A stretch of DNA of 38,294 nt from Syntrophorhabdus sp. Its GTDB lineage: Bacteria > Desulfobacterota > Syntrophorhabdia > Syntrophorhabdales > Syntrophorhabdaceae. The notes beneath the pieces were generated by a model. It was given only the letters and a program-made list of their open reading frames with translations, was not told the origin of the DNA and did no database searches. Positions 27,286-35,307 of the stretch are shown here, piece after piece. The position numbers were made by a program, and so were the translations under genes. Every line of letters begins with the position of its first letter. The stretch's first letter is position 1. The DNA lies in NCBI GenBank assembly GCA_012719415.1, contig JAAYAK010000111.1, forward strand, positions 1-38,294, written 5' to 3'.

Positions 27286-27642
27286 CAACGTCTCCGTACT
27301 ACGGAGTATGACGGCAAGGCAACAAAAGTTATACATATCCTCACATTTATCTTGACAACCCTTTCACTACCCTAGTATAAGTATATTTCATCTTAAAGAC
27401 ATACGTTGCATTACGGTTTTGTCGGGGACGGTCGACACATCACAGACGGAGTCATCATCTGATTCCCCGGAATGATCGCTGGCCCATTGTGGACTGGCGA
27501 CGCTTGGGTACTTATGGGTGCGAAGCTCGATGATGGGACTGTTTGAGCACAAGGAACGCGAGACCGGAGTCTACGGAAAGCGTCCCGAAAGGTGTGCGTG
27601 CGTCCCTCCAGCAGGGACCCGGTGTGGGAAGGGTCGGTGCCT
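27286..27642. other. leader region of the giant mosaic gene
   Basis: This 357-base gap contains a good promoter (27352-27381) and about 255 bases of predicted untranslated leader. A small CTCCG/CGGAG hairpin lies at 27292-27306. A 38-codon frame (27530-27646) overlaps the next gene's start but lacks a ribosome site. I could not match the leader to a known riboswitch. Confidence 0.5.
27352..27381 (+). promoter_or_regulatory. sigma70-type promoter of the giant mosaic gene cassette
   Basis: A perfect TTGACA (27352-27357) is followed after 18 bases by TATAAG (27376-27381). The surrounding 60 bases are much more AT-rich than the rest of the window. The start codon is about 255 bases downstream. 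Confidence 0.7.
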
Positions 27643-30600
27643 GTGAACAACATTCATGACAAAGAGGCCCTCAGGGAAGACGGCGGCCGGGGGAACCGCG
27701 GTGTTTCGGACGATGAAGCTGTAAGCGCCGCGCTTCGCTATCTCTTCGGTCTCCAGAGGGACGACGGCGGTTGGGGGACGTCGCAGGACGGACCCAGTTC
27801 CATACACATGACCGCGATGGTCGTAATGCTCCTGAGGCGTTTTCCCCCCGACGAAGACAGGCGTGTCGCCCTGGAAAAGGCTACGGGATACCTCCTGGCG
27901 AGACAATACGGGGACGGAGGTTTTGGAGACGCTTTCTCCACCGTGCACGAGACGGCCCTCGCGAGCCATGCCCTTGAAGGTCTGCTCGATGGCCCGGAAG
28001 CAGTCGTCAAGGCGAAACAATACCTCGTTCGGGCACAATCGGAAAATGGTTCGTGGAACGACGACCTGTACTCCACGGTCCTTGCCCTTGAGGCCTGTGT
28101 GCCTACCGGGGAAGGTCTTGCGGTCACCGGGGCCGGGGAGGGAGAAACGTGGATAGAGGAGGAGGGACACAGGGGTGCAGGGCCGGGCGACGCGGAGGAT
28201 GGGTATCCGGGAGCCGACGGAACGCCGTCGGGCAGCCGCTATAGGGCGGCATCGGACGAGAGCGGTGATGGAGGTACGGCCGCGAAGGGTCAGATCCGGG
28301 GATCGAATGAGCGAACGAAGATCTCCCTCGTTTCGCGCCGGAAGGCCAGCGCCGTTTCCATTCAGGATGCCGTCCAGGATGCCCCTCTCTCGGTCAGGAG
28401 CGTTATTGTGCGGTCTGTCGGGACGGACAGAAAGGAGTACGGTCCGAACGAGACGGTGCGCATATGCTCCACCATCGAGAATCGATCGGAGGCCGACTTC
28501 AGCATCGTTGTCAATGCCCAGCTCGCTGATGCCCGAGGCCATATAGTGGACGTGGCGGCCCATGAAACAGGACCCGCGGTGAAGCTCGGCGCGGGGGCCT
28601 CCGAGCCCGTGATGCTCCTGTGGAACACGGGCATGAGCCAGCCTGGCGCCTACAGCGTTCGTTTCCATGTCGCCGACGCTGCCAGCGGGAGCGTTGTCGA
28701 TGAAAGAAAGCTGGCATTCGTTATCGTTCCCTCTGTCGCCCTCGAGGACCTCGATCTCGTCGTCACCCCCTCGAGCCTCGATCAGTACGAGACGAAAACG
28801 GTGGAGATGCGGCTCACCTTGCAGAACAGGTCCAACACGGACGCTGTCATGAACGTGGAGGTCCTCATGAAGGACCCGGAGGGAACCCGGGTACATGAGG
28901 GACGGGTCGCTGTCGACGTGCCGTCGTCGGTACCGGAGAGGATCCTGGAACTGCCTGCCCTGACGCATGTCTTCGACCGCTGCGGGCAGTACCTGGTGGA
29001 GGTCTCGGTCCGTTCGGGGGAGGTTTTGTGCGGACAGGTGAGGAGTGCCATCCGCGTTGCCCCGGCGACGAGGATCGAGGTCGTCAAGACCGTGGATCCC
29101 GCGACTGTAACCCCCGACGGGGACAAGGAGGTGAGGGTGAGCATCCGCCTCGAAGGCGTGGGTGCGACGGTCAACCCCTCGCTCCTCTCGGCGGTGACGA
29201 ATAGCGGCGGCGACAGGATCCTCCTCAGCTTCGATAAGGCGATGGCACAGCCCGCCGTTGGGGTCCCGATGTTCACGGTCACGGCTGACGGGGTTCCCTG
29301 TGCCGTCCTTAAAGTGCGCCTCAGGGAATCGGACATTACCAGGATCGATCTCGTTCTCGCGGCGCCGGCGGCAAAGGGACAAGAGATCCGTGTGGGCTAT
29401 GCCGGCTCAAGCCTCACGTGCATTGAGGGCAAACCCCTCATGCCCTTTGACGACGAAGAGGTTGCAAACAGGGTTTCGCCGCCCATATTCAACCAGGACG
29501 GATATGGCTTCAGTGGCCCCATCCCGCCGAACCCGCTCACCGTAAGGACGGTGATGACGGGATACGGCGAGTGGCCCCGGGGTTTTTACAAAAACGTCCT
29601 CGCCTTTGCGGGCGCCGTGTTCGACGGCAAGGCCATCTGGATGGTCCCGGCCAATGCCGACAGCGTCGTGAGACTCGAAACGGATACGGGTGAGATGACC
29701 GCATTCAACCACTGGCCGGAGGGGTTTCGCAAGGGCAACCTCGCCTTTGCGGGCGCCGTGTTCGACGGCAAGGCCATCTGGATGGTCCCGGCCAATGCCG
29801 ACAGCGTCGTGAGACTCGAAACGGATACGGGTGAGATGACCGCATTCAACCACTGGCCGGAGGGATTCTCGAAAGGCGGCCACGCCTTCGCCGGAGGTGT
29901 TTTCGACGGTGAATGCCTGTGGATGGTCCCCTCCTATGCCGACAGCGTCGTGAAACTGGATACCGGCACCGGTGAGATGACAAGATACAATGGCTGGCCG
30001 AAGGGGTTTTCAAAGGGCGGATATGCCTTCGCGGGAGGCATCTATGACGGCCGCTTCATCTGGATGGTCCCGGCCAATGCCGACAGTGTTGTGAGGATGG
30101 ACACGCATACGGGCGAAATGAGCGCCTGCGGCGGGTGGCCCGAGGGTCTCGGCAAGGTCGAATACGCCTTCGCCGGAGGTGTTTTCGATGGTCGCTACAT
30201 CTGGCTCGTGCCTTATTATGCCGACCGGGTCGTGAGGGTGGATACCCAGACGGGCGAGATGACCGGTCATCACCAGAGGCCCGAGGGTCTCGGCAAGGTC
30301 GAATACGCCTTCGCCGGTGCCGTTTTCGACGGGCAGGGTGTCTGGATGGTGCCCTTGAACGCCGACCGGATCGTCAGGATAGACAAGGATACGGCAGAAG
30401 CGACGGAGTACCCGGAGTGGCCGCAGGGTTTCATCAAAGGGGTGAACGCCTTCGCCGGGGGTGTCTTCGACGGAGAGTGCATCTGGATGGTACCCTCTTA
30501 CGCGGACAGGGTGGTGCGCATCTCTTCCTTTTCATCCCTGTCCCTTTCGGCCTCCGTTACCGCGAGCGACGCCTTCTCGGCGTACATCAGTCAGGACGAG

Positions 30601-32145
30601 TCCGGGGAAGGCAGGCTGGCCGGCCAGGGAAAGGGGTGGTCCTCCGTCCATACCCTCCACGCCCCCCTTGTCCCCGGTCTCACGAACTACCTGCATGTGA
30701 AGTGCGTCGATACCGCGGGCCCCGTGGCGGCGTTCATGGCGGACATCTTCCTCAATGACGAGAGCTTCCATTTTGCCGACGGGTCGAGACACCTTGTGAC
30801 CTCGGAGGGCGGCTGGCGGGTCTACACCGACAGGTTCGGAGGCACCGAAGGGCCGGTCACGGCTGTGTGCAAGAACGGTGAAGGCTCTTGGTCGACGCGC
30901 TTCGGCATCGACCTCGACGCGAAGTGGATATGGACCGGAAGGGGCGTGGACAGGGGCACGCGGTTCTTTTCCACCCCCATATACTATTCACCCGTCCCCA
31001 TCGCTCCCATGGAGGACGTGGTCATCACCGAAACGGTGGCCGGGGGGAAGGTGACCGTGGATGAACGTTCCTTTACGCGGGAACCCTCGCGGGTCGAACG
31101 GGGAGAGGACGGAACGATCGTTGAATGGCGCCTCGAAGAGTTCAGAGTGGGCCAGCGTGAGGATTTCTCTTTCAACGTGATGCTCAGGGATACGGTTCCC
31201 GGTGAGGAGCGTCTCGTCAACCGTTCTCTCAAGGTGGCTTACAGGGACGTCCGGGGGGCGATGGCCGAGAGGGAATTGGGCTCTTCTCACGTTCGTGTGC
31301 TTTCCTCCCCTTTTGCCGGTTCCATCGGCACACAGCGGCAGGTGTACGGGGTTGGAGAAGATGTGGATATTCTTTGTTCCGTCAGGAATCTGAGCGATCT
31401 TCCCCGGACCCTCGATGTCAGGGTGACGATGGAGGACGCGCAGGGAGTGCTCATCGAGGAGAGTCTTGTAAAAGACGTGCGCTGTGAGCCGGGAGAAGAG
31501 AGGGACATCGACGGACTCGCCTTCAAGCTTGTCGCGACCAATGCCGGGCTTCACAGGCTTCGCCTGCTACTGCATGAAGGTCAGGAAGAAAGAGTTCTGG
31601 CCGCAACCGGTTTCACGGTGGAAGACGTGCCCGCCACGGGGGTCTCCCTGCGCGGTAGCGGCCCGGCAGGTGGGCAGGCAGATACCCCTGACGGGGAGGT
31701 TGACAGCGAGGCCGGAGGGGACGGCAGCGATGGCGGCCTTCCGTCGGAAGGCGTCGGCGGGCAGGCTTCGGAAGAGGGTCTGCCCGAGGGTCTGCCGGAG
31801 GGTCTGGAAGGGACGGTCAACGCACAGCCGAGCCCCATATTCCAGGGGTTATCGGAAACCATCTACTACACGGTGTCACACGGTGCGGGAGGGGACCTCA
31901 CGGGACTCAGCGTGAACGTGGTGATAGCGGAGGGAGAAACGGGAAAGGCCAGGCAGTCGTTCCTGGCGCCTCGCGCCCACTTAAAAGGCGGGTCCTTTGC
32001 CGGGAGCTTCACCTTTTCGACGGGTGCACTGGAGCCAGGCGAGTACATGGTGAAACTGGTGATCTCGCCTGGTTCCGGAAGTGAGGGGCGGGAGATAGCG
32101 GCCACGAGCTTTGTGATCCGCAGGATCGAGATGGTGGTGACCTGA
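27643..32145 (+). CDS. giant mosaic protein: cyclase-like repeats, beta domains, seven-bladed propeller
   Basis: About 1500 residues, not a family I can name. Order: three terpene-cyclase/prenyltransferase-type helical repeats (QRDDGGWG, RQYGDGGFGD, AQSENGSW; about 20-156); a charged linker; three Ig/CARDB-like beta domains (about 245-515); a SwmB-like domain (about 515-625); seven 47-residue repeats, consensus AFAGGVFDG-xx-IWMVP-xx-ADSVVR-x-DTxTGEMT (about 650-962), fitting a seven-bladed propeller; a lectin-like region; two more beta domains; a Gly/Glu-rich linker; a final beta domain. There is no signal peptide or membrane helix. The start is uncertain: GTG 27643 (GGGAAGGG upstream), GTG 27637 or GTG 27592. 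It heads a four-gene cassette. The modules suggest binding or scaffolding rather than catalysis. Confidence 0.85.
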   Translation: MNNIHDKEALREDGGRGNRGVSDDEAVSAALRYLFGLQRDDGGWGTSQDGPSSIHMTAMVVMLLRRFPPDEDRRVALEKATGYLLARQYGDGGFGDAFSTVHETALASHALEGLLDGPEAVVKAKQYLVRAQSENGSWNDDLYSTVLALEACVPTGEGLAVTGAGEGETWIEEEGHRGAGPGDAEDGYPGADGTPSGSRYRAASDESGDGGTAAKGQIRGSNERTKISLVSRRKASAVSIQDAVQDAPLSVRSVIVRSVGTDRKEYGPNETVRICSTIENRSEADFSIVVNAQLADARGHIVDVAAHETGPAVKLGAGASEPVMLLWNTGMSQPGAYSVRFHVADAASGSVVDERKLAFVIVPSVALEDLDLVVTPSSLDQYETKTVEMRLTLQNRSNTDAVMNVEVLMKDPEGTRVHEGRVAVDVPSSVPERILELPALTHVFDRCGQYLVEVSVRSGEVLCGQVRSAIRVAPATRIEVVKTVDPATVTPDGDKEVRVSIRLEGVGATVNPSLLSAVTNSGGDRILLSFDKAMAQPAVGVPMFTVTADGVPCAVLKVRLRESDITRIDLVLAAPAAKGQEIRVGYAGSSLTCIEGKPLMPFDDEEVANRVSPPIFNQDGYGFSGPIPPNPLTVRTVMTGYGEWPRGFYKNVLAFAGAVFDGKAIWMVPANADSVVRLETDTGEMTAFNHWPEGFRKGNLAFAGAVFDGKAIWMVPANADSVVRLETDTGEMTAFNHWPEGFSKGGHAFAGGVFDGECLWMVPSYADSVVKLDTGTGEMTRYNGWPKGFSKGGYAFAGGIYDGRFIWMVPANADSVVRMDTHTGEMSACGGWPEGLGKVEYAFAGGVFDGRYIWLVPYYADRVVRVDTQTGEMTGHHQRPEGLGKVEYAFAGAVFDGQGVWMVPLNADRIVRIDKDTAEATEYPEWPQGFIKGVNAFAGGVFDGECIWMVPSYADRVVRISSFSSLSLSASVTASDAFSAYISQDESGEGRLAGQGKGWSSVHTLHAPLVPGLTNYLHVKCVDTAGPVAAFMADIFLNDESFHFADGSRHLVTSEGGWRVYTDRFGGTEGPVTAVCKNGEGSWSTRFGIDLDAKWIWTGRGVDRGTRFFSTPIYYSPVPIAPMEDVVITETVAGGKVTVDERSFTREPSRVERGEDGTIVEWRLEEFRVGQREDFSFNVMLRDTVPGEERLVNRSLKVAYRDVRGAMAERELGSSHVRVLSSPFAGSIGTQRQVYGVGEDVDILCSVRNLSDLPRTLDVRVTMEDAQGVLIEESLVKDVRCEPGEERDIDGLAFKLVATNAGLHRLRLLLHEGQEERVLAATGFTVEDVPATGVSLRGSGPAGGQADTPDGEVDSEAGGDGSDGGLPSEGVGGQASEEGLPEGLPEGLEGTVNAQPSPIFQGLSETIYYTVSHGAGGDLTGLSVNVVIAEGETGKARQSFLAPRAHLKGGSFAGSFTFSTGALEPGEYMVKLVISPGSGSEGREIAATSFVIRRIEMVVT
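29598..29864 (+). repeat. perfect 126-bp tandem duplication inside the propeller
   Basis: Bases 29598-29723 and 29739-29864 are identical over 126 bases at a 141-base (47-codon) period, covering blades 1 and 2. The remaining blades (to about 30530) have diverged at the DNA level but keep the same period. Confidence 0.9.
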
Positions 32146-32198: not shown

Positions 32199-33005
32199 AT
32201 GCCGAACGATTTCATTGGGGATCTTTCAAAAACAAGGCTTCTCGATCTGATATCGCCCCTGCTGAGCAAAAAGAGATCGGGCATGATACAGATCAAGGGA
32301 GGCGAGGTCGGCGAGATCTACATAGAGGGATCGAACATAATCCATGCCAGGACGGGAGACCTGACGGGTGAAGAGGCAGTGCTCGCCATGATGGAATGGA
32401 ACGCGGGACGGGCCACCTTCGACTGGGAGGCGGCGACAGACGAGCAGACGGTCTACATGCCGACGGAACAGCTCCTCATGATCTGGACCAACCGCGAGGC
32501 GGAGTGGGGGAGGATCAGGGAACTCATCCCGTCCCCGAACGTGGTGTTCCGCATCCCCGTCAACGGATGCCCGGACAACAGGAGCGTTCAGGCGAACCAG
32601 TGGAAGGTGCTGGCCCTCTGCAACGGAATGAGATCGGTCTCGGACATCGCCGACGCGCTGGGCTGGCAGCTTTTCGAGACGTCACAGACGTTGCACGGCA
32701 TGGTCCGGGACGGCCTCCTGGAGAAGGCTGCCGAAAAGAGGGTGGAACAGACCGAGCGGGTCCGCAGAACTGTGAACGGTAACTTCTTTCCTCTCATCGA
32801 GAACGAGCTGCGCAAGGCCATGGGTCCCATCGCTCCCATAGTCATCGAGGATAAGCTCGCCGAGTTTGGGGAGTCGAGAGAGGCCTTCCCCGAGGACAGG
32901 CTCTCGCCATTCATTCAGTCCGTCGGCGAAGAGATCTCCGATGGATCGAAGAGGGCCCTGTTCACGCGTCTCATGGCGGAACACCTTGCGCGAAAACAAA
33001 AATAA
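32199..33005 (+). CDS. DUF4388 (PATAN) protein with winged-helix-like middle
   Basis: The 268-residue cytoplasmic protein begins with a DUF4388/PATAN domain (about 4-95): GDLSKTRLLDLISPLLSKK, then SGMIQIKGG, GEIYIEGSNIIHA and EEAVLAMMEW. Residues about 125-180 look like a winged helix (NQWKVLALCNGMRSVSDIAD...LHGMVRDGLLEK). The C-terminal 80 residues form an acidic helical domain (LIENELRKAMGPIAPIVIED) seen in other DUF4388 proteins. PATAN domains are known from PatA-type regulators and gliding or signalling proteins, where they mediate protein contacts. AAGGAGG lies 6 bases before the ATG. It is 53 bases after the giant gene. Confidence 0.8.
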   Translation: MPNDFIGDLSKTRLLDLISPLLSKKRSGMIQIKGGEVGEIYIEGSNIIHARTGDLTGEEAVLAMMEWNAGRATFDWEAATDEQTVYMPTEQLLMIWTNREAEWGRIRELIPSPNVVFRIPVNGCPDNRSVQANQWKVLALCNGMRSVSDIADALGWQLFETSQTLHGMVRDGLLEKAAEKRVEQTERVRRTVNGNFFPLIENELRKAMGPIAPIVIEDKLAEFGESREAFPEDRLSPFIQSVGEEISDGSKRALFTRLMAEHLARKQK

Positions 33006-33036
33006 CTAAATCCTAAAATCTCAGGAGGGGGTTTGC

Positions 33037-33987
33037 ATGTCTACAGAGAATAAAGTCACATCAGGGTTGCTTTTCAGGCTCATCGCGGGAATTTTCGTCC
33101 CCATCCTGCTGGCTTTCGCGTTTTTGGGGTGCGTGTTGTTCCTGAACATCGATCTCGGAGGCTTCCAGTTCTTGAGCATCCGTGGCATCTGGACGAAGAG
33201 CATGAGTGAACTCGGCGCCGCGAGCCTGAAGGAGTCGACGGCATCACTCAACAGGCTCGGCGAGCAGATCATCCAGCAGAAGGCCGAGGACGTCGCCAGG
33301 GAGATGGAGATCGCCCTGGGGACGGCGAAGAAGAGACCATCCATGGAGACGCTGCGGAACGACGGGTCCCTGAAGCAGATCGCCGTTCAGAAGGTCGGCG
33401 TGACGGGTTACACCGCGATCCATGACACCCAGGCGATAAACCACTTTCATTCCAACCCCAAGCTCGTGGGATCGGATCTGCACGACCTTTCCGGAAAGCT
33501 TCCGCAGTTCTGGAAGCTCCTTGAAAAGGGACTCGCGGGACCCGCTGGAGGGTATTACAACTGGAGGGACCCTGACGGCAGCATCCGCCCGAAGTACATG
33601 TACATTGCCCCCGTGAAGGGTTTGGGTCTCTTTGTCGCGGCGACGACATACATAGACGAGTTCTCGAAACCGGCCCAGGCGATAACGGCAAAGATGGGTC
33701 AGATGCAGAAGACATACGCCGCGCAATACAACAGGCGGTTCGGCCTTATCCTTATCATCCTTGCCGTCGTTCTTCTCGTATTGCTTGGTGTCATCTACCT
33801 GTATTCCTTCTCCGTGGTCCGTCCCATCCGTCACCTCTCGGAGGTGGCCGACAAGATAAGCATGGGCGATCTCAAGGCTACCGTGGATGTTAAGGCGAAG
33901 GGCGAGATAGCCGTTCTGGCCGAGTCGATAGAGAGGATGCAGGCAAGCGTGCGGGCAGCCATCGAGAGGCTCCAGAAGAGAAGATAG
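33037..33987 (+). CDS. membrane Cache-HAMP sensor without output domain
   Basis: The 316-residue protein has two membrane helices (about 10-37 and 232-256) flanking a periplasmic single-Cache-type domain. Typical sequence is GVTGYTAIHDTQAINHFHSNPKLVGSDL and a GGYYNWRDPDG turn followed by KYMYIAPVKGLGLFVAATTY. A HAMP domain follows (VVRPIRHLSEVADKISMGDL, about 262-305). The protein stops 15 residues later (RLQKRR), with no methyl-accepting, kinase or cyclase domain. Signal must pass to a separate protein, plausibly the flanking DUF4388 proteins. GGAGGGGG lies 6 bases before the ATG; gaps to neighbours are 31 and 63 bases. Confidence 0.88.
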   Translation: MSTENKVTSGLLFRLIAGIFVPILLAFAFLGCVLFLNIDLGGFQFLSIRGIWTKSMSELGAASLKESTASLNRLGEQIIQQKAEDVAREMEIALGTAKKRPSMETLRNDGSLKQIAVQKVGVTGYTAIHDTQAINHFHSNPKLVGSDLHDLSGKLPQFWKLLEKGLAGPAGGYYNWRDPDGSIRPKYMYIAPVKGLGLFVAATTYIDEFSKPAQAITAKMGQMQKTYAAQYNRRFGLILIILAVVLLVLLGVIYLYSFSVVRPIRHLSEVADKISMGDLKATVDVKAKGEIAVLAESIERMQASVRAAIERLQKRR

Positions 33988-34050
33988 CGGGACTGACCGC
34001 GCGCCCTGGGAAATAGGGGCTGGCGGTCCAACGAAAGAGCAGAGGTCGAT

Positions 34051-35307
34051 ATGATATATCCACAGGGAAAAACGATCCATCAGAACTTGTCCGCGGAATA
34101 CACGGACGTTCCACGGCTCCTGTCGACCCTTACGGGCAACGGTTTCTCGGGAGTGGTGGAGATAGAGGGAGGAGGCACGAAGGGCGCCTTTTTCATCGCA
34201 AGGGGCCGGATGATAGACGCGGTGGTTGGTGTCGATGCGGACCCGCCCTCAATGACGGGAGATACGGCGGTGCCGGAGCTTTTTGCCCTGGCGAGGCAGC
34301 CACAGGGGCTTCTCCACGTGCACGAGCTCACGGCGGCCCAGGTCGAGGTCGCCACGGGTTCCTTGAGGTCGGAGCTTGTCTTCAAGGACCTCAGCACCGA
34401 TTTCATCCGCGTGGAGCAATTCGTCGGCAAGCTGGGCGAGGAGAAACACACGGGTTACATCGAGATATCCGGGAAGGACGGCAAACGCATCGGAACCCTT
34501 TCCCTCAGGGCGGGGGAGCCTGTGGCTCTGCAGGTTCTTTCGGAATCCGGTCAGGCAACCCTTTTTGAAGGTGAAGCGATCCCTTCGGTCCTCGACAATG
34601 CCGTGAGGCATGGCGCCCTGTTCAATGTCTACCGCAGCTCAGGCGTTACGGAGGGGACCCCGAAGGCTGCCGATGCGGGTCCTGAGGGACCTGATGGAAT
34701 TTCACGGAAGACCACAGTCTCCCAGACCCGGGCGAAGAGGGAATTGAAACAAGTGAGCGATCCCGCAGTCGAACCGGAGAAAAAGGACGATGTTCCGGCG
34801 GGACCGGTCCCGGCGGAGGAGCGGGTGGAAGCGCCGAAGGAGCCACCGGCGCCGGCGCCGGCGCCGGTGGATGCGAGGGCGGGGGAACAGGAGGCGGACG
34901 ACGTCTCGGCGAGCGGCCGGAAGGAGTTCATTTCCGCCCTCCAGCGGGTGTTGTCCAAGATAGAGTCCTTCGTCGACCACATATCGAAGAAGGGCGACTT
35001 CCAGAGGGTCTTCAGGCGGGTCTGTGTCGATGCATCGGACCTGTTCCATTTCCTTGATCCCTTCGAAGGACAGTTCGAGTACGATTCCGGCAGGATACGG
35101 GTTGACGACACGATCGGCCCCGACGATCTTGCCGTCGCCACCGCATATTGTCTCAATCTCGTGCTGGCTGACCTCAACAAGGAATACCTGAAGGGCGCCG
35201 CCCTGCCGCCGGGCCTTAAAGGGGAGATAGAGTCGGCGTTCAGGCATTACAAGGACGCCATCAAGAACTCGGGGATGAACTTCGTGGTTCCCACCAACAT
35301 GAGATGA
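34051..35307 (+). CDS. second DUF4388-type protein with linker and helical C-terminus
   Basis: The 418-residue protein has two N-terminal domains resembling DUF4388 effector-like folds: residues about 14-105 (LLSTLTGNGFSGVVEIEGGG, GAFFIARGRMIDAVVG) and 112-195 (VEQFVGKLGEEKHTGYIEI, GTLSLRAGEPVALQV). A low-complexity Pro/Ala/Glu linker spans about 200-290, including PPAPAPAPV, encoded by a 28-base palindrome. The C-terminal 125 residues are a compact helical domain I do not recognise (SALQRVLSKIESFVDHISKK, then AYCLNLVLADLNKEYL). No membrane segment. It is the last gene of the cassette; AGAGG precedes the ATG weakly. Confidence 0.75.
   Translation: MIYPQGKTIHQNLSAEYTDVPRLLSTLTGNGFSGVVEIEGGGTKGAFFIARGRMIDAVVGVDADPPSMTGDTAVPELFALARQPQGLLHVHELTAAQVEVATGSLRSELVFKDLSTDFIRVEQFVGKLGEEKHTGYIEISGKDGKRIGTLSLRAGEPVALQVLSESGQATLFEGEAIPSVLDNAVRHGALFNVYRSSGVTEGTPKAADAGPEGPDGISRKTTVSQTRAKRELKQVSDPAVEPEKKDDVPAGPVPAEERVEAPKEPPAPAPAPVDARAGEQEADDVSASGRKEFISALQRVLSKIESFVDHISKKGDFQRVFRRVCVDASDLFHFLDPFEGQFEYDSGRIRVDDTIGPDDLAVATAYCLNLVLADLNKEYLKGAALPPGLKGEIESAFRHYKDAIKNSGMNFVVPTNMR
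34843..34870. repeat. 28-bp perfect palindrome within a coding linker
   Basis: The sequence is a perfect inverted repeat of 14 bases with no spacer, made of CCACCGGCGCCGGC and its complement. It encodes part of the Pro-Ala linker of the second DUF4388-type protein. Confidence 0.9.

Follow-up and report, generated by a model that had tools for sequence, protein, structure and literature searches.

A giant leaderless protein of Syntrophorhabdus joining a half cyclase-type toroid, Ig-like domains and a predicted seven-bladed propeller, encoded beside a PATAN/Cache module

The window, that is, the whole stretch of 38,294 nt analysed here, sits on one contig (JAAYAK010000111.1) of a 3.7-Mb MAG of Syntrophorhabdus sp. 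(GCA_012719415.1; G000), and all coordinates below refer to its plus strand. It carries a giant gene (27643-32145) that starts with GTG and encodes a protein of 1,500 amino acids without any transmembrane segment. The reading frame is open and intact from 27592 to 32145 and the GTG at 27643 is backed by the relatives, confirming the position that an earlier note on this DNA, made from the letters alone, had given to the gene. At the locus, fusA-dtd is followed by the giant gene, a PATAN - Cache/HAMP - PATAN module and korABC-type genes. Domain searches identified the module as a DUF4388 (PATAN) plus winged-helix-like protein of 268 aa (32199-33005), a Cache-HAMP membrane sensor of 316 aa without output domain (33037-33987) and a second DUF4388 (PATAN) protein of 418 aa (34051-35307). 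Several Thermodesulfobacteriota families keep this triad (32199-35307) together, whether or not the giant protein accompanies it.

Alignment of the upstream DNA showed a sigma-70-type promoter, TTGACA-18-TATAAG (27352-27381), which is conserved in the relatives as TTGACA-18-TATAAT; owing to the final G of its second hexamer, the promoter of the window is passed over by a consensus scan. The promoter is followed by a 5' leader of about 250 nt (27382-27642), of which the first 30 nt (ATTTCATCTTAAA-ATATACGTTGCATTAC) hardly vary between species and possibly represent a regulatory site. A riboswitch in this leader was rejected, as an Rfam search gave no match up to E=1. In the alignment of the relatives, a GTG or an ATG occupies the start position, preceded by a GGGAGG-like ribosome site, and in the sister-genus relative (genome G029) an in-frame stop lies directly before the ATG. 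The three upstream frames, read in seven genomes, encode no conserved leader, hydrophobic or otherwise. A missed N-terminus, one of the options considered in the earlier note, is therefore unlikely and was rejected.

The protein begins with half an alpha/alpha toroid of three squalene-cyclase-type repeats (residues 22-152; 27706-28098), recognized both by Pfam profiles and in the predicted model. PF13249 (E=1.2e-7) and PF13243 (E=1.4e-6) both exceed the gathering score here, and six helices, mostly with a pLDDT of 77-90, are predicted at residues 23-152, forming three hairpins, which amounts to half a complete alpha/alpha toroid, as had been supposed from the sequence. Inspection of residues 22-152 found no DXDD motif. 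As for an alpha-2-macroglobulin thioester domain, the TED profile reached 14 bits against a cut-off of 22, and no CGEQ motif is present in the sequence. Behind the toroid lies a variable disordered linker under weak constraint (residues 156-251, pLDDT below 50; 28108-28395), followed by two Ig-like beta domains (residues 252-473, pLDDT 75-88; 28396-29061). These domains had been called CARDB/Ig-like, of which the Ig-like part agrees with the predicted folds; the CARDB label was dropped, as PF07705 matched neither the giant protein, nor its relatives, nor anything in the whole genome at E<=0.01. In the relative from G029 (L019 7253-11920), a CarboxypepD_reg domain replaces the Ig pair while the other architecture is kept, indicating that this stalk is modular. 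A Swm/Big-type Ig-like domain comes next (residues 511-608; 29173-29466). Its Swm repeat match (PF13753) is weak in the window protein, at 22.7 bits under the curated Pfam cut-off of 27, and a Swm-type match occurs in 5/6 members scanned with Pfam and, as TIGR02059, in 6/6 scanned with NCBIfam. The SwmB-like domain proposed earlier is kept here as a weak, candidate Swm-like domain.

Residues 634-963 (29542-30531) were predicted from their repeats and from the structural model to form a closed seven-bladed propeller with the shape of virginiamycin B lyase (Vgb). Seven repeats of exactly 47 aa each were found in the window protein, as in each of the five other relatives that are complete. In the model, each blade has four strands and a velcro strand lies at residues 636-641; since a repeat-end-like strand precedes repeat 1 and is missing from the last repeat, the ring would be closed by this N-terminal strand. 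When residues 634-968 of the predicted model were aligned to virginiamycin B lyase (VIA-align), a Z of 30.9 and an rmsd of 2.4 over 293/299 residues were obtained, about 4 Z units ahead of the next families in the fold search. Structure prediction therefore bears out the closed seven-repeat propeller that had been placed at about residues 650-962. At the sequence level, a propeller profile run against all PDB sequences retrieved no Vgb up to E=1, and Pfam and NCBIfam scans of the giant proteins matched no Vgb model.

The blade signatures SYAD (blades 3 and 7), YYAD (blade 5) and LNAD (blade 6) are largely preserved across genera. Blades 1 and 2 (29593-29874) are identical over a 120-nt core in both the window and the species of G002, and the two species are about 18% apart there. 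The two blades are thus homogenised within each species and differ between species, which is concerted evolution, and this tandem homogenisation illustrates, on a small scale, blade amplification still under way in nature. A copy in MAG G005, near-identical to the window, shows six blades; we attribute this to assembly collapse because two blades share 120 identical nucleotides and the other complete relatives have seven, and rejected a genuine six-blade variant, the remainder of the gene being 99-100% identical. The same MAG holds two different fusA-dtd-giant-gene loci (L015 and L016), one of them nearly identical to the window. Because the second copy stands beside a second, different fusA-dtd, it probably comes from a contaminating species, and G005 probably mixes two species.

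The 540 residues after the propeller had been described as a long flexible tail. They are mostly beta domains, about four in number, and the description holds for a single disordered linker some 55 residues long. The first is a well-conserved beta domain whose model confidence is too low to assign it a fold (residues 964-1115; 30532-30987; dN/dS ~0.12), followed by a beta-sandwich-like domain in the predicted model (residues 1116-1218; 30988-31296) and an Ig-like domain that matches the Ig-like domains of GH2 enzymes with Z ~13 (residues 1221-1329; 31303-31629). The variable disordered linker (residues 1331-1383; 31633-31791) then leads to a conserved C-terminal Ig-like domain (residues 1387-1500; 31801-32142). 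All structures are predictions built from eight or nine homologues, the model of the C-terminal half being moderately confident (mean pLDDT 63). With multi-domain models, Foldseek returned a mixture of Ig and transglutaminase-type hits at low TM-scores, and only the propeller was taken as a firm fold match. The C-terminal domain is also found on a separate protein in genome G021 (L079 2942-4714), a leaderless chain of 590 aa composed of a CarboxypepD_reg-like domain, a long acidic linker and this domain.

Orthologues of the giant protein were found in 9/11 other genomes of the genus and in one genome of the sister genus. The carriers are Syntrophorhabdus-type or Syntrophorhabdaceae-type MAGs (Deltaproteobacteria/Thermodesulfobacteriota), with Syntrophorhabdus sp. 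PtaB.Bin047, UBA1386 and Syntrophus sp. SW.3.55 as named records; the genomes compared are MAGs throughout, some of them incomplete or mixed. The window protein shares 42-77% identity with five aligned full-length orthologues. The propeller profile found no match among 394 further genomes drawn from across the phylum, nor any in phage records. A weak PHROG match the size of one blade and a weak plasmid match (24% identity) were the sole hits of this kind; a phage origin was rejected, and so was a defence system, PADLOC giving no match to the giant protein. Comparison between species yielded a dN/dS of ~0.17 across the whole protein, which is purifying selection, with the strongest constraint in the propeller and the following domain (0.09-0.12) and much higher values only in the two linkers, indicating that the giant protein is real and constrained. 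The gene is patchy: at this locus it is absent from G003 and G021, and it is C-terminally shortened in G007. In an EF-G tree, G003 and G007 are both nested inside carriers of the gene, and their states are thus most simply explained as losses.

Besides the window, seven genomes from two genera show the order giant gene-PATAN-Cache/HAMP-PATAN (in G009 and G011 with the giant gene in gapped pieces), and G004 matches the locus order as far as its contig extends. The gap between the giant gene and the module is widened to ~0.4-0.65 kb in G008 and G029. The module occurs without the giant gene in G016, G050 and G089, and its first two genes do so in G021; neither giant gene nor module is present at the locus in G003, and the shortened gene of G007 has no module. 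Within the order, the C-terminal domain was detected in 10/11 genomes with a full-length match to the first gene of the module, the exception being G016, and in 0/35 genomes without one, G041 with two short fragments of that gene being counted among the 35. The two nested lineages without the module (G003 and G007) are also without the C-terminal domain; because this domain adjoins the module, single deletions can explain both. In G021, which has no giant gene at the locus, module and C-terminal domain lie at separate loci, making it the sole independent case in a count over related genomes. This distribution is suggestive of a link between the C-terminal domain and the PATAN/Cache module. Cyanobacterial PATAN proteins link sensors with the control of type IV pili (PMC7690835), and a role in surface behaviour is therefore conceivable.

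Neither the window protein nor any intact relative, their starts aligned, has a signal peptide, and the strongest hydrophobic 19-mer of the giant protein reaches only 1.76 on the Kyte-Doolittle scale. The absence of a signal peptide and membrane segment remarked on in the earlier note is therefore confirmed and conserved in the relatives. Since the starts are aligned and the upstream frames hold no conserved leader, it is a real property of the family and not an annotation slip. The cysteine content (0.5-1.5%) is not informative on location. Most bacterial domains of the toroid, Swm and carboxypeptidase-regulatory types are extracellular. The combination of extracellular-type parts with the lack of an export signal means that the giant protein would either work inside the cell or leave it by another route.

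The folds, predicted in part, point to binding or scaffolding rather than catalysis, and the label of a binding or display protein given before fits them. Our tentative preference, held at somewhat less than even confidence, is that the giant protein is a lineage-specific, non-enzymatic, multivalent binding scaffold which is cytoplasmic and tied to the PATAN/Cache module; we infer its binding role, its lack of enzymatic activity, its location and its link to the module alike. In this scheme the protein would be synthesised leaderless and would most probably remain in the cytoplasm, the propeller would act as the main binding head with the Ig-like domains as a stalk and two flexible linkers joining the parts, and the C-terminal domain would connect the scaffold to the PATAN / Cache-HAMP / PATAN sensory module. 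The consistently leaderless relatives, the absence of an LssB-type exporter described below, the selection on the propeller and the next domain, folds of a kind common in binding proteins, the missing DXDD motif, the conserved neighbourhood and the shared distribution of C-terminal domain and module all speak for this reading. Against it stand the extracellular-type domains, the signal peptides on two toroid-bearing proteins (L012 and L034, see below), the fact that the C-terminal domain adjoins the module, the genome G016 and the widened gap in G008 and G029.

We favour the cytoplasmic scaffold, on the grounds of the consistently absent export signal, over an adhesin of the cell surface or matrix that would exit by a non-Sec route and display the Ig stalk and propeller outside, an alternative that rests on the usual extracellular location of such domains and that we regard as a serious contender, if the less probable of the two. 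Domain types of this kind are usual in exported proteins, and two toroid relatives carry signal peptides: a stand-alone one of the same family (L012) and a protein of ~3,400 aa in the Thermodesulfobacteriota MAG SKW55 (L034 2345-12784), in which two stretches of helical toroid are accompanied by many CARDB-like domains. The fold matches of the Ig-like parts include the biofilm scaffold RbmA, and the neighbouring Cache sensor has an extracytoplasmic sensing part. There is also a precedent for leaderless exoproteins in marine Synechococcus (PMC4949707). Arguing against the adhesin are the lack of a leader, a C-terminus in which nothing RTX-like was seen and the absence of the exporter from several carriers. 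In a search covering the LssB type of type-I exporter, full-length matches scored 540-551 bits in the family genomes having one, whereas none was found in the genome of the window (best match 284.5 bits, partial), G008 or G011, the latter two being 99-100% complete; LssB-type export of the giant protein was accordingly rejected. Moreover, the C-terminal domain is unlike a general sorting tag, a candidate that was also rejected, since across the order it is common to just the giant protein and one other, likewise leaderless, protein. An unlikely variant is a display protein that is exported with neither a Sec/Tat leader nor an LssB-type exporter, by an undescribed route, and whose C-terminal domain serves as a handle for the PATAN/Cache module.

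Profile searches and predicted folds support the view that the domain order is unusual, and the giant protein is a new arrangement of known folds. With Vgb (PDB 2z2o/2z2p) its predicted propeller has the closed seven-bladed form and an equal shape in common, but Vgb is a stand-alone enzyme of ~300 aa, whereas the propeller here is one of about nine parts and lacks a Vgb profile match. Squalene-hopene cyclases (PF13243, PF13249) have the same QxxDGGWG-type helical repeats, matched here above the curated cut-offs, yet they form two complete barrels and possess DXDD, whereas the giant protein has three hairpins joined to beta domains and no DXDD. These comparisons bear on the very unlikely reading of the protein as an enzyme, with the propeller as a Vgb-type lyase or the toroid as a terpene cyclase, for which the rank of Vgb as best propeller fold match and the cyclase profiles of the toroid speak; the half-sized toroid without the DXDD motif and the propeller without a sequence-profile match to Vgb structures speak against it.

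The likeness to Synechococcus SwmB (PF13753, TIGR02059) is confined to one weak domain match in most relatives, a single sub-threshold copy against a long array of repeats. The SKW55 protein likewise sets a helical toroid beside many beta domains in one giant chain, but differs in its signal peptide, its two toroid stretches and the lack of a tblastn match to the propeller. Matrix proteins of the RbmA/Bap1 type are exported by Sec, and in Bap1 a propeller is joined to other beta folds; at the level of fold, the giant protein resembles these biofilm proteins in its tandem Ig/FnIII-like domains (RbmA by fold search). CylK likewise carries a Vgb-like propeller of seven blades fused to a further domain (PMC8916777), but it is an alkylating enzyme with a Ca-binding beta-roll, and outside the propeller the two proteins have no part in common.

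Export by Sec, with a leader missed through a frameshift, an upstream ORF or an assembly error, is highly improbable: the domain content raises the expectation of a leader and the 5' leader RNA is long (about 250 nt), but the start is aligned over species and independent assemblies with exchange of GTG and ATG at that codon, and the stop in G029 and the upstream frames argue the same way. Least probable of all is a recently acquired or decaying mosaic whose function does not matter to the host, as the patchy distribution with its absences and its shortened copy might suggest, given the low dN/dS, above all in the propeller and next domain, the conserved promoter, and seven blades whose individual signatures are kept over genera.

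Taken singly, the parts of the giant protein are known folds, and what is unusual is their order in one chain together with the consistent absence of an export signal. If the protein works inside, bacteria would use Ig-stalk-plus-propeller scaffolds in the cytoplasm, beside a PATAN-type sensory module; if it works outside, these anaerobes would own an export route that is invisible to standard annotation.
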